DNA from: Burkholderiales bacterium
Lineage (GTDB): Bacteria > Pseudomonadota > Gammaproteobacteria > Burkholderiales > SG8-39
Assembly (NCBI GenBank): GCA_022844545.1
Contig: JALHLN010000008.1
Span: forward strand, 1-32,600
DNA: 32,600 bases
Direction of reading: 5' to 3'
Position 1 is the stretch's first letter; the number at the start of each line of letters is the position of its first letter. The position numbers and the translations under genes were made by a program. Under the pieces are notes generated by a model. That model was not told where the DNA came from. It did not search any database and was given only the letters and a program-made list of their open reading frames with translations. Of the stretch, positions 7,397-14,099 are shown in pieces.

Positions 7397-8458
7397 TCAG
7401 GTTACTTTGATCACGATCTTGCCGAACTTGGCGCCGGTCTCGTAGTAGCGGATCGCTTCCAGAACCTCGTCGAAGCCGAACACCCTGTCGATCACCGGCC
7501 GGATGCGGCATACCTCAAGCGCGCGCACGAAGTCCTCGAACATGCGCCGGCTGCCGACGGTGAAGCCCTTGATGGAGATGCACTTCGCGATCAGGTTGGG
7601 CAGCTGGGTGAAGCTTGCGGGCGCGGCGGCGGCGCCGACCACGGGACGCGCGCCGATGTGCATCACGCGTGCGTTCGAGGCGCACGAGAGCAGGCATCTT
7701 TCTAGCGTGGCATAGCCGATGGTATTGAGCACGACGTCAGCGCCGCGGCCGCCGGTCAGCCGCATGACTTCGCGGTCCCATTCCGGGTGCGTCCGGTAGT
7801 TGATGGCCTCGTCCGCGCCAATCCCGCGCAGCCGCGCGCATTTGTCGTCGCTCGAGGTCGTCGCGATCACCCGCGCACCGAGGCTCTTGGCGATCTGCAC
7901 CCCGAATACCGAGACATTGCCGCTGCCAAGCGTCAGGACCGTCTCACCGGGTTGCGTCCCTGCCTCCACCGTGAGCGCCCGCCAGGGCGTCAGGCCCGAG
8001 CTCTGCAACGGCGCCGCCTCCTCGAAGGACAGGCACTCAGGGATCCGCACCAGCGCCTCGGCCGGCACTCGAGCCTGCTCGGCCAGGAACCCGTCCAGGA
8101 CGTCGCCGAAGTCCGCATGCGCCATGGTGTCGAAATCCCAGGCACCATCGACGAAACGCGGGTAATGCGTCGCCATGACCCGATCGCCGGGCTTCACGCG
8201 TGTCACGCCCTCGCCCACGGCAATGACTTCGCCCGCTCCATCCTGCAGCGGGATGCGCTCCGGTGGAGGCGGGTTCTGCCAGGGCTTCCTTTCGGCGGGC
8301 GGCCAGGCACTCTTCATGATGCTGAGATCCCGGGCGCCAAGCCCGGTCGCGCGCACCTTCAGCACTACCTCACCGGGCCCCGGCGCCAGATCCGGGAGCT
8401 CCACCTGGTGCAAGGTCATTGCCCCGTTGCGGCGGTCGCCGAGCCGCCAGGCGCGCAT
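7397..8458 (-). CDS. MDR/zinc-type alcohol dehydrogenase-like oxidoreductase
   Basis: MRAWRLGDRRNGAMTLHQVELPDLAPGPGEVVLKV; DGAGEVIAVGEGVTRVKPGDRV; TLGSGNVSVFGVQIAKSLGARVIATTSSDDK. Confidence 0.9.
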   Translation of the reverse strand: MRAWRLGDRRNGAMTLHQVELPDLAPGPGEVVLKVRATGLGARDLSIMKSAWPPAERKPWQNPPPPERIPLQDGAGEVIAVGEGVTRVKPGDRVMATHYPRFVDGAWDFDTMAHADFGDVLDGFLAEQARVPAEALVRIPECLSFEEAAPLQSSGLTPWRALTVEAGTQPGETVLTLGSGNVSVFGVQIAKSLGARVIATTSSDDKCARLRGIGADEAINYRTHPEWDREVMRLTGGRGADVVLNTIGYATLERCLLSCASNARVMHIGARPVVGAAAAPASFTQLPNLIAKCISIKGFTVGSRRMFEDFVRALEVCRIRPVIDRVFGFDEVLEAIRYYETGAKFGKIVIKVT

Positions 8459-9411
8459 CAATCCGCCTTCGCGCCCGAAACCTCCACGACCCGCTTCCAC
8501 TTCGAAACTTCCGCCTTCATGAACGCGTCGAATTCGCCTGCGGTACTGCCGGACACGGTAAATCCCGCGCCGGTCAACTTCTCCCGGACCTCCGGGGAGC
8601 GGACCGCCTTGGCAAACTCGGCGCTCAAGCGCTCGACCACCGGCCTGGGCGTGGCCGAAGGCGCGAAGACGCCGAACCAGGAGTCCACCACATAGCCCGG
8701 CAGGCCCGCCTCCTCCATCGTCGGCGTCTCGGGCATCTGCGCCGAACGCGCCTTGCTGGTCACCGCCAGGGGCCGCAACTTGCCGCCCCGGATGTGGCCA
8801 AGCGCCGTCCCCGGCTGATCGAACACCATCGTGATCTGCCCGCCCAGCACGCCGTTGAGCGCCGCCGCCTGCCCGGTATACGGGACATGGACGACGTCGA
8901 TGCCTGCCATGCTCTTGAGCAGCTCCGCCGAGAGGTGCGTCCCGGTGCCGTTGCCGCCGGAGGAGTAGTTGAGCTTGCCTGGCTGCGCCTTGGCCATCGC
9001 GATGAGGTCCTTCAGGTTCTGCACCTGCAGCGACGAGCTGACCACCAGCAGAAGGGGTTGCATGACCAGGAGCGAGACCGGCGAGAAATCCGCGAGCACG
9101 TCGTATGGCAGGTTCTTGTAGAGGCTGTGCCCGATGGCGAGCGGAGTGGATCCGATCACGATCGTGTAGCCGTCGCCAGGTGATTTCGCCGCAAACGCCG
9201 TGCCGATCTGGCCGCCGGCACCGCCGCGGTTCTCGACGACGACCGGTAGCCCCAGTCCCTCACCCAGTTTCGGACTGACGACGCGCGCGACCAGGTCGGT
9301 GCCGCCGCCGGGGCCGAAGGGAACCACGAACCGGATCGGTTTCGAAGGAAACGGCTGCGCAACGGCCGAAACGGAGAACAGCGCCGCAAGAGCGACAAAC
9401 AAGGCCTTCAT
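8458..9411 (-). CDS. Bug family TTT substrate-binding protein
   Basis: MKALFVALAALFSVSAVAQPFPSKPIRFVVPFGPGGGTDLVAR; HVPYTGQAAALNGVLGGQI; SWFGVFAPSATP. Confidence 0.95.
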   Translation of the reverse strand: MKALFVALAALFSVSAVAQPFPSKPIRFVVPFGPGGGTDLVARVVSPKLGEGLGLPVVVENRGGAGGQIGTAFAAKSPGDGYTIVIGSTPLAIGHSLYKNLPYDVLADFSPVSLLVMQPLLLVVSSSLQVQNLKDLIAMAKAQPGKLNYSSGGNGTGTHLSAELLKSMAGIDVVHVPYTGQAAALNGVLGGQITMVFDQPGTALGHIRGGKLRPLAVTSKARSAQMPETPTMEEAGLPGYVVDSWFGVFAPSATPRPVVERLSAEFAKAVRSPEVREKLTGAGFTVSGSTAGEFDAFMKAEVSKWKRVVEVSGAKAD

Positions 9412-10271
9412 ATTGGAGCCTCCTCATTGAGAAACCGGGTCACGCTGCGCGCGATCTCGGCAGCATGCGATTCGATGGCGACGCGGCCGGCGTTCTGGAT
9501 TGTCTCGCCGCGCCCCCGCTTCAACAGCCGGCAGACCGCATCGAGCTGCCGTCCCAGATGCTCCTCGTCGGGCATCACCAGCTCGAGCAGCAGGGTCCTG
9601 GCGGCGATGCGTTCCAGCGCGGCGCCGAAGTCGTAGTCGAAGTTCGCGCCGTAGGTGGCCTGGATCGCCGCGGCGCCCTGCACATGGTCCAGCACGCGGA
9701 TCTTCAGGTCCTCGATGTCGGCCTCGGTGATCACCGGTTTGGAGAACAGGCTGCGCGGCTGCGCGAAGCCGGTGACGTCGGACCAGTCGGCCTGCCAGCG
9801 GCGCAGGCGATGCTCGCCGTTCGGCGATTCCGGGAACGTCGCGAAGTACTTGTCGACGATGTGGCGGATGGCATCGTTGCGCGCGTCGCGGTCGGGAATG
9901 ATGCTGTGGATCTGGCCGCACAGCACCACGCCATCCACTTGCCCCGGATGCCCGGCCGCCATCGCGGCGGCCACCTTGTTGCCGGTGTGGTAGCCGAACA
10001 CGTGCGCCCTGGGGATGCCGATCGCGCCGAGGAACTCGACCATCACCTCGCCCAGCGTCTCCATGGTCACCTTGCCGGCGAGCGGATCGGACTGGCCGAA
10101 GCCCGGCAGGTCCGGCGCGATGCAGCGGAAACCCGGTGCGAGCAGCGGCACCAGGAAGCGGTAAGCACGCGAGGAGCGCGGCGCTGAGTGCAACAGCAGC
10201 AGCGGCGCGCCCTCGCCCGCCTCGACATAGTGGACCTGGCCGTGCTTCAGGTTCGCGTAGGCGCGCTTCAT
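9408..10271 (-). CDS. Alpha/beta fold hydrolase with atypical GYHTG nucleophile elbow
   Basis: MKRAYANLKHGQVHYVEAGEGAPLLLLHSAPRSSRAYRFLVPLLAPGFRCIAPDLPGFGQSD; VFGYHTGNKVAAA. Confidence 0.88.
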   Translation of the reverse strand: MKRAYANLKHGQVHYVEAGEGAPLLLLHSAPRSSRAYRFLVPLLAPGFRCIAPDLPGFGQSDPLAGKVTMETLGEVMVEFLGAIGIPRAHVFGYHTGNKVAAAMAAGHPGQVDGVVLCGQIHSIIPDRDARNDAIRHIVDKYFATFPESPNGEHRLRRWQADWSDVTGFAQPRSLFSKPVITEADIEDLKIRVLDHVQGAAAIQATYGANFDYDFGAALERIAARTLLLELVMPDEEHLGRQLDAVCRLLKRGRGETIQNAGRVAIESHAAEIARSVTRFLNEEAPI

Positions 10272-10273
10272 TC

Positions 10274-11245
10274 TCAGTCCAGCTTCGCGCCGGAATCCTT
10301 CACGACCTTGGCCCACTTGGCCACTTCGCTCTGGACGTGCGCGCCGAACTCCTTCGGCGTGCTGGTAACCACGTCGAATCCGAGGGCGTTCAGCCTCTGC
10401 GCCACCTCGGGGGCGCGCACCGAGGCCGCGATATCGACAGCGAGACGATCGAGAATCGGCGCCGGCACGCCCGCCGGCCCCATCATTCCGTACCAGGCGA
10501 TGACGTTGAATCCCTCGAAGCCCTTGATCTCCGCCATGGTCGGCAGCGTCCCGTCGGCGACCAGCGGCGAGCGCGTCGGCCCGGTGGTCGCAAGTGCCTT
10601 GAGGCGCCCTGCCTTGACGTGCTGCATGGCCGTCGAAGCGCTGTCGAAGAGCATGGAGACGCGGCCGGCCGCCATGTCGGCCGAGGCAGGCGCCTGGCCC
10701 TTGTAAGGAACGTGCAGGATGTCCAGACCCGCCATCAGCTTGAACATTTCGCCCGCGAGGTGCGTGGCGCCGCCGGCGCTGTGCGAGGCGTACGTAAGCT
10801 TGCCGGGCTGCGCCTTGGCCAGTGCGACCAGCTCTGCGACCGTGGTCGCCGGCACCGTGGAGTGCACTACGAGCACAAACGCCTGGCGCGTGAGCAGCGT
10901 GACCGGCGACAGATCCTTCAGCACGTCGAAGGGGATGTCATTGCGGAACGCGGGATTGGTGGCGAGCGGCGTGGCCGCGAGCACCAGCGTGTGGCCATCC
11001 GGCGCCGAGCGTGCCACCTGGTTGGTGCCGATGTTGCCGCTGGCGCCGGCCACGTTGTCCACGACGACGGGCTTGCCGATGCGCGGCCCGAGCTGACTGG
11101 CGATCATGCGGGCGAGCGCGTCGGCGCTGCCGCCGGGCGGATAGGGCACGACGATGCGGATGGGCTTGTCGAGCGGGAAGGTCTGCGCCTGCACCGCAAG
11201 CGCCGAGAACACCAAGACTGCTCCGCCAATGATTCTGCTTAACAT
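10274..11245 (-). CDS. Bug family TTT substrate-binding protein
   Basis: MLSRIIGGAVLVFSALAVQAQTFPLDKPIRIVVPYPPGGSADALAR; HVPYKGQAPASADMAAG; AWYGMMGPAGVP; SD AAAGGAGA upstream. Confidence 0.95.
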   Translation of the reverse strand: MLSRIIGGAVLVFSALAVQAQTFPLDKPIRIVVPYPPGGSADALARMIASQLGPRIGKPVVVDNVAGASGNIGTNQVARSAPDGHTLVLAATPLATNPAFRNDIPFDVLKDLSPVTLLTRQAFVLVVHSTVPATTVAELVALAKAQPGKLTYASHSAGGATHLAGEMFKLMAGLDILHVPYKGQAPASADMAAGRVSMLFDSASTAMQHVKAGRLKALATTGPTRSPLVADGTLPTMAEIKGFEGFNVIAWYGMMGPAGVPAPILDRLAVDIAASVRAPEVAQRLNALGFDVVTSTPKEFGAHVQSEVAKWAKVVKDSGAKLD

Positions 11246-11256
11246 GCACTTCTCCT

Positions 11257-12654
11257 TTATGAAATGCGCGTTGCCGCGCTCCTGCCTGCAATGCGACCGA
11301 AGATCAGCGCCTTGCCGATCCCGGTGCCCGAGTGGTAGCTGGCGCCGTGAAAGCCGCCAGTCGACTCCCCCGCCGCGTACAGGCCGGGAATCGGTTGACC
11401 CTTCCTGAGCACGCGCATCTGCGCATCGACCGCAATGCCGCCGTAGGTGGCAAGCAGGTGGCCGATGGTGGCGTAGGCGTAGAACGGCGCCCTGTCCAGG
11501 CGCACCGGCTTGCCGAAATTGCCGGCCAGCACCTGCCGCCCGAAATCCTGGTCGCGCCCTGCGTCCACGAAATCGTTGTAGCGCGCCACCGTCCGGCACA
11601 GGTCTTCGGCGGGCACTTCCATGTTCACCGCCAGCTCCTCGAGCGCACGCCCCTTCACCAGCAGGCGGATCTTGTTCGCGTCCAGCGTCATCGGCGAGCT
11701 CTGCCCCGCCGCTGCCTGCGCGGCCACCGCCTTGTCGTAGACGGCGGAATCGAAGACCTGCCAGCCCATCATGCCCGGCTGGTCCAGGCAGGCGCGCGCG
11801 ATGTCCTTGTACGAAATGGACTCGTTCACGAAGCGCTCGCCCCTGGCGTTGACGATGATGCCGCCCTGGTAATACAGGATCAGGATGTCGTCCGAGGTGC
11901 CGCCGCTCGCGTGCAACTCGAAGCTGGGCTGCACATACTCGATGTCGCGGGTGTCGGCGCCCAGCGCTTCGGCCATGCGTAGCGCGTCGCCGGTGTGGCC
12001 AATGCCGGAAGTCGCCAGCACCCGGTCGAATCGCGGCTCAATGCGGCGCAGCCGCTCCGGATCGCGCGCGAAGCCACCCGCCGTCAGCACCACGCCCTTG
12101 CGCGCGCGGATGCGCGAGGCGCGGCCGCTGCGCTCGCGCACCGTGGCTCCCACCACGGTACCCGCATCGTCGGCGAGCAGTCCGGTCACGGGCGTCTGGA
12201 ACACCACCTGCGCGCCGCGCGACTCGGCGGCGCGCCTGAGCGTGCGCACCAGGTCAATCATGTCGGTCAGGTGGCCGCGCGGCACGCTCATCCCGGCCAT
12301 GGCGGAGACCGTGGGCGACCAGACGATGCCCAACTGGCACAACTGCCGGTAGGTGCCGAGCGCGTGATCGACGTAGGCCTGCACCTGTACTGGATCGTTC
12401 TTGTGGCGGCCGGTTTCGAGGATGTCTCGGGCCATCAGTTCATTGGAGTCCGCGACGCCGTTCCTGGCCTGCAGATCGGTGCAGGGAAAGCTGACGCGCC
12501 CGACAGCGATGGCGGTGGACGATTCCCAGATGCGCATCTGCTTCTCGAACACGATGGCGCTCGCGCCGGCAGATGCCGCCTCGATGGCGGCCTGCAGCCC
12601 CGCGCCACCGGCACCGGCGATGAGAACGTCGACCTCATCGTCCCAGGGATCCAT
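11257..12654 (-). CDS. FAD-dependent oxidoreductase (fumarate reductase/succinate dehydrogenase flavoprotein-like, FAD_binding_2)
   Basis: VDVLIAGAGGAGLQAAIEAASAGASAIVFEK dinucleotide fold; GRASRIRARKGVVLTAGGFARDPE; GLYAAGESTGGFHGASYHSGTGIGKALIFGRIAGRSA. Confidence 0.92.
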   Translation of the reverse strand: MDPWDDEVDVLIAGAGGAGLQAAIEAASAGASAIVFEKQMRIWESSTAIAVGRVSFPCTDLQARNGVADSNELMARDILETGRHKNDPVQVQAYVDHALGTYRQLCQLGIVWSPTVSAMAGMSVPRGHLTDMIDLVRTLRRAAESRGAQVVFQTPVTGLLADDAGTVVGATVRERSGRASRIRARKGVVLTAGGFARDPERLRRIEPRFDRVLATSGIGHTGDALRMAEALGADTRDIEYVQPSFELHASGGTSDDILILYYQGGIIVNARGERFVNESISYKDIARACLDQPGMMGWQVFDSAVYDKAVAAQAAAGQSSPMTLDANKIRLLVKGRALEELAVNMEVPAEDLCRTVARYNDFVDAGRDQDFGRQVLAGNFGKPVRLDRAPFYAYATIGHLLATYGGIAVDAQMRVLRKGQPIPGLYAAGESTGGFHGASYHSGTGIGKALIFGRIAGRSAATRIS

Positions 12655-14099
12655 CAGGCGATCATGCGGACGATCTGCGCCACGTCATCGAGCTGCTCCA
12701 GCCGGTCGACCGCATCGATCAGGCCATCCACCGTCGCTGCCGGCATCGGCTTCACCGAGTAGACCATGCAGTCGCGGAACTTCTCGACCTGGTCGGCGCG
12801 CGGAATCGGGTTGCGTGGATGGCCGTAGCGGTAGCCGTTGTGGCGGAATTGCACCGACTTGCCGCCGCGCAGGCCGATCTCGACGCCCGCCTGGATCTCG
12901 GCCGTGCCGTAGGACTTGTCGCAGGCCGGATCCGTACGCCAGCGCACCTTCGCGGCCATGGCGAGGATCGCCGGATCGCGCAGGCCTTCGCGCGTGAAAT
13001 GGTCGATCTTCGGCTTGCCCTTGGCGATCGCCGTGGCGACCGTGTAGGGGATGCTCATCTGCGCCTCGGTCATGTTGCTAGGGCTGCAGCGCACCTCCCG
13101 CGGCTCGCAAAGGTTCAACGCCCGGGGGCCGACCGACAGCGTCACGGACTCGACGTCCTCCGGTCGCACGCCGTTCTCGCGCACCAGCTTGAGCGTCTCG
13201 GCTACATAGACCTGCGTGTAGCCACAGCATGGGTAGGCATAGGCACCGAGTTCACTGGACAGGAAGCGTGTTCCGAGCCCTTCGGTCAACGCGCCCGGAT
13301 CGTATTCGCCACGGAAGAACAGCGGGAACAAACCCGCCTTGCCCTCCAGGCTGCGCGGCGCGCCGGCGATGCCCTTCGCGGCCATCAGGACGGCGAGGAT
13401 GCTCTGTTGCGCGGGAAACGACTGGTAGAGGCCTTTGTCGGCGCCGACTCCGAACAGCGGTTCCATGGTGCCCGCCGCCTGCGCATAGGCAAGGCCGAAG
13501 GCGCTCACCTGCTGCTTTTCGTTCAATCCGGCCAGCCGCCCGGCCAGCGCGGCGCCGCCGAAGTAGCCGAAAATCTGCGGCGGCAGCCAACCGTAGCTCG
13601 CCCAGTCGCGCGAAGGCGTGGGAGGAAACACGGCACGACCCAGCCGGGCCATCACATCCAGCGCAAGCACGTAAGCGGTGAGGAACTCCTTGCCGCTCAC
13701 CTTGCCGCTGCGCTCGGCGCTTGCCAGTCCGACCGGCAGCAGCGTGCCACCGGGGTGCGACCACCAGGCATCGAAGAGATCGTTGAAGTTCAGCGAATGA
13801 ACCAGCGCCGCATTCACCCAGGCCGCCATGTGCGCCGGCACCTTTCCGCCGTAGCCGAGGATGCTCGCCTCGGGCTTGCCGCCCAGGTCCAGCGCAATCT
13901 CCGACATCTCGCGGCAGGCTGGCGTGGTCGTGGTCGCCGCCAGCGCGACGCCGATACCGTCCAGGATGTTGGCTTTCGCTACCGCAAGCGCATCGCTGGG
14001 AATATCCTCGTAGCGCACGCTGCGCAGCGCGCGCGCGAAGGCGAGCGAGGCATCGTCACCCTGCGCCTGGAGCGCGGACTTCGGCAGCGGATCATTCAC
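12654..14099 (-). CDS. MmgE/PrpD family protein
   Basis: GTG start at 14099; VALAATTTTPACREMSEIALDLGGKPEASILGYG, HSLNFNDLFDAWWSHPGGTLLPVGLASAERSGKVSGKEFLTAYVLALDVMARLGRA; typical MmgE/PrpD layout. Confidence 0.9.
   Translation of the reverse strand: MNDPLPKSALQAQGDDASLAFARALRSVRYEDIPSDALAVAKANILDGIGVALAATTTTPACREMSEIALDLGGKPEASILGYGGKVPAHMAAWVNAALVHSLNFNDLFDAWWSHPGGTLLPVGLASAERSGKVSGKEFLTAYVLALDVMARLGRAVFPPTPSRDWASYGWLPPQIFGYFGGAALAGRLAGLNEKQQVSAFGLAYAQAAGTMEPLFGVGADKGLYQSFPAQQSILAVLMAAKGIAGAPRSLEGKAGLFPLFFRGEYDPGALTEGLGTRFLSSELGAYAYPCCGYTQVYVAETLKLVRENGVRPEDVESVTLSVGPRALNLCEPREVRCSPSNMTEAQMSIPYTVATAIAKGKPKIDHFTREGLRDPAILAMAAKVRWRTDPACDKSYGTAEIQAGVEIGLRGGKSVQFRHNGYRYGHPRNPIPRADQVEKFRDCMVYSVKPMPAATVDGLIDAVDRLEQLDDVAQIVRMIA

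Follow-up and report, generated by a model that had tools for sequence, protein, structure and literature searches.

The nucleophile elbow motif GxHTG is well supported as the signature of a large and widespread family of alpha/beta hydrolase-fold proteins, and its His is a family-level fact, with members found in Proteobacteria, Chloroflexota, Actinomycetota and Desulfobacterota. Textbooks treat the Ser/Cys/Asp-acid-His triad as a fixed feature of the alpha/beta-hydrolase superfamily. The change in the His-elbow family looks like a rebuilt active site, because the family as a whole has also lost the canonical His that follows beta8. The member described here, P0001, is encoded on the minus strand at complement(9408..10271) of the window, by which we mean the whole 32,600-nucleotide stretch of DNA that was analyzed.

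The reading frame of P0001 runs from an ATG at 10271 to a stop codon at 9408-9410, and the 287-residue product was delimited by ORF analysis, the Pfam family Abhydrolase_1 and an AlphaFold model. It contains VFGYHTGNKVAAA, in which GYHTG corresponds to residues 93-97 (9981..9995, minus strand) and His95 is encoded by CAC at 9987-9989. The original prediction, that GYHTG stands in place of G-x-S-x-G with His at this codon, is therefore borne out by the protein sequence. The match to Abhydrolase_1 (PF00561) has an E-value of 2.8e-18 and 66.9 bits against a cut-off of 25.8, and by this score, the AlphaFold model and the Foldseek matches P0001 is a genuine alpha/beta hydrolase fold. An NCBIfam scan of P0001 gave no equivalog above cut-off, and the dehalogenase and epoxide hydrolase models of that collection scored far under theirs. 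A sequencing error or pseudogene was rejected by the open frame, the conserved family and the dN/dS values. A wrong strand or frame was likewise rejected, the plus-strand frame over P0001 being antisense noise.

The AlphaFold model of P0001, built from a 31-sequence alignment (pLDDT 93.5, pTM 0.92), was examined for the geometry of the elbow. Strand 89-94 leads to His95 at the turn and on to helix 96-107, which places His95 exactly in the strand-turn-helix turn of a nucleophile elbow. A second model, of the distant GHHTG member L009 (pLDDT 94.9; two plasmid rows were left out of its alignment), repeats the arrangement with strand 91-96, His97 and helix 98-109, and has Asp215 three residues past beta7. 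In a profile alignment against PDB entries, His95 falls on the Asp of a haloalkane dehalogenase and on the Ser of Est1. P0001 thus has His95 where canonical alpha/beta hydrolases carry a Ser, Cys or Asp nucleophile. An elbow located elsewhere, with a normal Ser nucleophile, had been named as the finding that would overturn the prediction; the AlphaFold model and the profile alignment place the elbow at His95, and no second GxSxG elbow occurs elsewhere in the protein sequence. That P0001 is an ordinary hydrolase whose elbow has shifted, or whose Ser nucleophile is at another site, would agree with its general homology to esterases, dehalogenases and epoxide hydrolases, yet two confident models and the profile alignment put His in the elbow, there is no other GxSxG and the beta8 His is missing, so that we regard it as extremely improbable.

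P0001 has Arg263 (9483..9485, minus strand) where canonical enzymes carry the catalytic His after beta8. The alignment column of Arg263 is His in 18/18 Ser/Asp-elbow relatives with the C-terminus covered and in 0/94 His-elbow members; after thinning at 45% identity the corresponding counts are 14/14 and 0/35. Elbow His and beta8 His therefore appear to be mutually exclusive in the alignment, although the counts are not independent and both changes may have arisen once, in which case Fisher p-values exaggerate the exclusion. The acid of the triad is retained after beta7. Glu236 (9564..9566, minus strand), the proposed partner of His95, is Glu in 45/45 covering rows of the closest subfamily (GNK, below), and other His-elbow rows have Asp in 96% one alignment column beyond it. 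The beta6 acid position in P0001 is Gly119, so that of the remaining canonical features the acid is present and the beta8-loop His is absent. The original prediction of a His at the nucleophile position and a non-standard mechanism holds in that the His is a family trait and the standard Ser/Asp/Cys route is implausible. Its picture of a swap at the nucleophile alone is not supported in that form, the beta8 His being gone too. The lyase or cofactor-less role that it suggested may still apply. The chemistry of P0001 probably lies beyond what the standard alpha/beta-hydrolase mechanism explains.

Whole-protein and profile genome searches, in which no elbow pattern was used, recovered GxHTG relatives ranging from the same genus to other classes, and the proposed assembly of a family around GYHTG proteins did yield GxHTG as a trait of a large one. 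The elbow His was present in all of the pattern-free relatives of the closest subfamily of P0001, GxH[T/A]GNK (GNK), which forms one clade (SH-aLRT 98). When 84,980 species genomes were scanned, 80 loci were recovered. Of these, 52 have H[TA]GNK, a count of His95 that is partly built in, since one of the two scan patterns included H[TA]GNK. In that scan an alignment query recovered relatives and a single-protein query recovered none. The loci span Beta-, Alpha- and Deltaproteobacteria and Chloroflexota, with GHHTG forms in Actinomycetota and Desulfobacterota. Protein similarity searches added plasmid members from Rhizobium, Shinella, Rhodococcus and Novosphingobium, which read GMHTG, GLHTG or GHHTG and, where annotated, are labelled only alpha/beta hydrolase. 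One such member is WP_183686272.1 of Rhizobium lusitanum. A tree constrained to keep all DGSHL/His-elbow rows together had a log-likelihood 14.3 higher than the free tree (p-AU 0.73), and these rows fit a single clade. The gene is patchy in occurrence, with a few of 98 family genomes carrying one, which fits accessory catabolism, where patchiness is expected.

P0001 carries the features by which we define the GNK subfamily in a 54-member alignment, namely the HTGNK elbow, a His-Ser pair after beta6, Glu230 and Glu236. His122 (9906..9908, minus strand), just after beta6 in the motif G-x-[TI]-H-S, is found in 54/54 rows, and Glu230 (9582..9584, minus strand) lies at the end of beta7. His122, Ser123, Glu230 and Glu236, none of which were part of the scan patterns, show 100% conservation wherever GNK rows cover them. 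His154 (9810..9812, minus strand) belongs to a cap motif, [DN]-G-x-H, and its column is His in 33/45 covering GNK rows and 48/56 covering other His-elbow rows. Close GNK orthologues have dN/dS of about 0.02-0.22 and the family is under purifying selection. The invariant elbow His is encoded by CAT in 28 cases and CAC in 22. The elbow His persists throughout a deep family with low dN/dS and is written with both of its codons, so it is not a chance substitution.

Some variation around the elbow was observed. Within one genome (G036, contigs C47 and C62; L034-L036) three divergent GNK paralogues have the elbows GHHTG, GFHIG and GLHAG, so the Thr that follows the His is replaceable. In some clade members the elbow residue is Ala, Leu or Gly, with motifs such as GSATG and GTLSG, from which it follows that the fold tolerates losing the elbow His. 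Tandem proteins of about 540-630 aa with two hydrolase-fold domains were also found (L045, L046, L055, L056, L014, L048, L061-L063), their N-domain having mostly GxHTG (GSATG in L048) and their C-domain a degenerate elbow (GVEGG, GQGEG, GRGLG or GGAAG). Another group without an elbow Ser (L010, L011, L068 and L075) has a HINQQSS oxyanion loop, a GEATG, GEAVG or GEAGG elbow and Phe at the beta8-His column.

Degenerate elbows in some relatives, including the second domains of the tandem proteins, together with the destroyed standard triad, would be expected if P0001 were a pseudo-enzyme or a protein that binds without catalysis, such as a sensor or chaperone in an organic acid pathway. A non-catalytic role was among those first suggested for the protein. 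We consider it unlikely, as strong purifying selection and the invariant His95, His122, Glu230 and Glu236 disfavor it; the conserved polar set with the cap motif and the location of the gene inside catabolic operons also speak against it. The same invariant residues could alternatively form a mononuclear catalytic metal site in the old triad pocket of GNK proteins. None of the four varies in any GNK row that covers it, and they persist in two plasmid-borne Rhizobium members that have lost His28. However, His122 is not kept in other His-elbow groups, Glu230 is absent from their conserved columns, and the Pfam and NCBIfam scans of P0001 gave no metal-family match. A metal enzyme is thus decidedly unlikely, and from the alignment such a site would be possible in the GNK subfamily only; if true, an alpha/beta-hydrolase elbow would have been converted to a metal ligand.

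PDB searches with five single proteins returned superfamily-level matches only, with no close solved structure for any of them. Foldseek matched the P0001 model best (TM about 0.7) to the fluoroacetate dehalogenase RPA1163, haloalkane dehalogenases and the epoxide hydrolase CorEH, which share its core, helical cap and elbow position. Haloalkane and fluoroacetate dehalogenases and epoxide hydrolases use an Asp nucleophile and a His after beta8, and the structure entries for RPA1163 name Asp110 and His280. P0001 departs from these enzymes at both sites, with His as the elbow residue and Arg in place of the beta8 His. 3-Oxoadipate enol-lactonase (PcaD) and the meta-cleavage-product C-C hydrolases are canonical Ser-Asp-His enzymes. 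They are near L009 in fold (2XUA, DxnB2) and similar in size and catabolic setting, and against the NCBIfam model for PcaD, P0001 scored 48.9 bits with a cut-off of 255.85.

Parallels in mechanism are found among members of the fold in which the elbow nucleophile is dispensable. HOD uses a His251-Asp126 dyad as base and has Ser101 or Ala at the elbow, the Ser being dispensable, and MKS1 keeps the catalytic His while the canonical triad is absent (PMC10548524). HOD/QDO, AqdC and MKS1 share with our proposal for P0001 the dispensable elbow nucleophile and a His-acid base (HOD) or lone His (MKS1) (PMC10548524). P0001 differs from HOD in that it has no beta8 His, carries its His at the elbow and has Gly119 at the beta6 acid position, and the HOD dyad is therefore not present in it. 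Cluster 39, of carboxy-lyase type, lacks the elbow Ser as P0001 does, but retains a D/E-H dyad with the usual His, which P0001 has lost (PMC11878206). In a superfamily-wide classification from 2024, the elbow residue is Ser, Cys, Asp or none, and the beta8 His is described as totally conserved (PMC11878206). Our literature search, confined to open-access papers, gave no relevant paper on GHHTG, GYHTG or GxHxG elbows and no description of a His-for-Ser elbow replacement.

In the window, P0001 lies within a tight minus-strand run of genes. The original prediction placed it between two Bug genes that it overlaps or abuts, and this arrangement was confirmed, with both neighbors matching PF03401. 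The downstream Bug/TctC receptor gene (8458..9411, minus strand; E=5.6e-70) has an ATG that overlaps the P0001 stop as ATGA and is preceded by a ribosome-binding-like site, GAGGAGG. The Bug/TctC gene just upstream (10274..11245, minus strand; E=7.7e-63), with a start at about 11245 suggested by its signal peptide, has its stop 2 bases ahead of the P0001 ATG. Beyond it on the minus strand are an FAD-dependent dehydrogenase gene of the flavocytochrome c/tricarballylate dehydrogenase-like (TcuA-like) type (11257..12654; PF00890, below NCBIfam cut-offs) and an MmgE/PrpD family gene (12654..14099; PF03972 and PF19305). On the other side is a gene for a zinc-type MDR dehydrogenase (outer ORF limits 7397..8500, minus strand; PF00107 and PF08240). 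The window also has NIPSNAP, D-2-hydroxyacid dehydrogenase, further Bug and aconitase genes, and judged by these gene families the surroundings of P0001 are an organic-acid catabolic region. Six Bug/TctC genes were counted between 4798 and 20297, among catabolic enzymes that include two MmgE/PrpD proteins and an amidohydrolase, and no TctA or TctB was found among the genes scanned in that interval.

Bug genes were found at 19/52 GNK loci and FAD_binding_2 genes at 13/52, in both cases in addition to the window. Genes of the Asp/Glu-racemase family (PF01177) occur at 10/52 and Amdase-family genes (PF17645) at 6/52, together at 15/52 loci, and both are absent from the window. At L086, L090 and L100 the hydrolase frame ends and the PF01177 frame begins 4 bases later. 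Two PF01177 genes were counted in the 3.25 Mb of the genome from which the window comes, which would correspond to ~0.4 expected in the searched flanks if that density held; an Amdase-family search of the same genome gave zero matches, its control being likewise silent. The pairing with a racemase gene is repeated in the other His-elbow branch, at L042 and in Shinella (L167), where the racemase gene is immediately downstream, and that branch has Amdase-family neighbors at L147 and L156. An association of TTT/Bug genes with AMDase genes has been described (PMC4996985). The neighboring genes point to small di- or tricarboxylate-like substrates and, being varied, to no one compound.

At two loci (L084, 6221-7138; L095, 6303-7178) a second odd hydrolase with an Ala elbow (GGATG/GCATG) was noted upstream of the Amdase-family gene, which itself abuts the GLHTGNK gene; the Ala-elbow protein of L084 retains the beta8 His. 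In Rhizobium lusitanum (L164, 8854-10446) the His-elbow gene overlaps a gene for a 530-residue hypothetical protein. A gene for an NAD(P)-binding protein comes next, and genes of the xanthine dehydrogenase family lie farther along.

We propose, with about even confidence, that P0001 is catalytically active and that the imidazole of the old triad was relocated from the beta8 loop to His95 of the elbow, with His95 and Glu236 acting as the general base in proton-transfer chemistry on a small acid. The two elbow models, the exclusivity of the two His positions, the beta7 acid, the GNK clade and the constrained tree, the dN/dS values, the precedent of HOD and MKS1 and the neighboring genes at the GNK loci support the proposal. 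The clade members without an elbow His, a possible single origin of both changes and the variety of neighbors weigh against it. The side chain of His95 would fill the former space of Ser and His and, by a predicted contact, pair with Glu236; the dyad would deprotonate the substrate or a water molecule, and no covalent acyl-enzyme would be formed. Plausible substrates are small organic acids, or enol, lactone or keto-acid derivatives, imported via Bug receptors, and the reaction may be a C-C cleavage, an isomerization, a decarboxylation or a direct-water hydrolysis. The scheme can be likened to the His-Asp dyad of the cofactor-free alpha/beta-hydrolase dioxygenases, except that the His would be on the elbow, and we know of no described case of an HOD-like catalytic His at that site. 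His95, at the exact nucleophile position by profile alignment and AlphaFold, might instead act as a covalent nucleophile through an acyl- or alkyl-imidazole intermediate. This route is very doubtful, since the canonical place lacks a second imidazole that could activate His95 or the hydrolytic water, and the reviewed variants of the superfamily have no elbow nucleophile other than Ser, Cys or Asp (PMC11878206).

A broad clade under purifying selection, with a His gained at the elbow and the beta8 His lost, would be evidence that the position of the catalytic imidazole is not fixed in the alpha/beta-hydrolase fold. It would also caution that proteins labelled simply as alpha/beta hydrolase may not be serine hydrolases, and the His-elbow clade is a defined family whose chemistry is open to direct testing.
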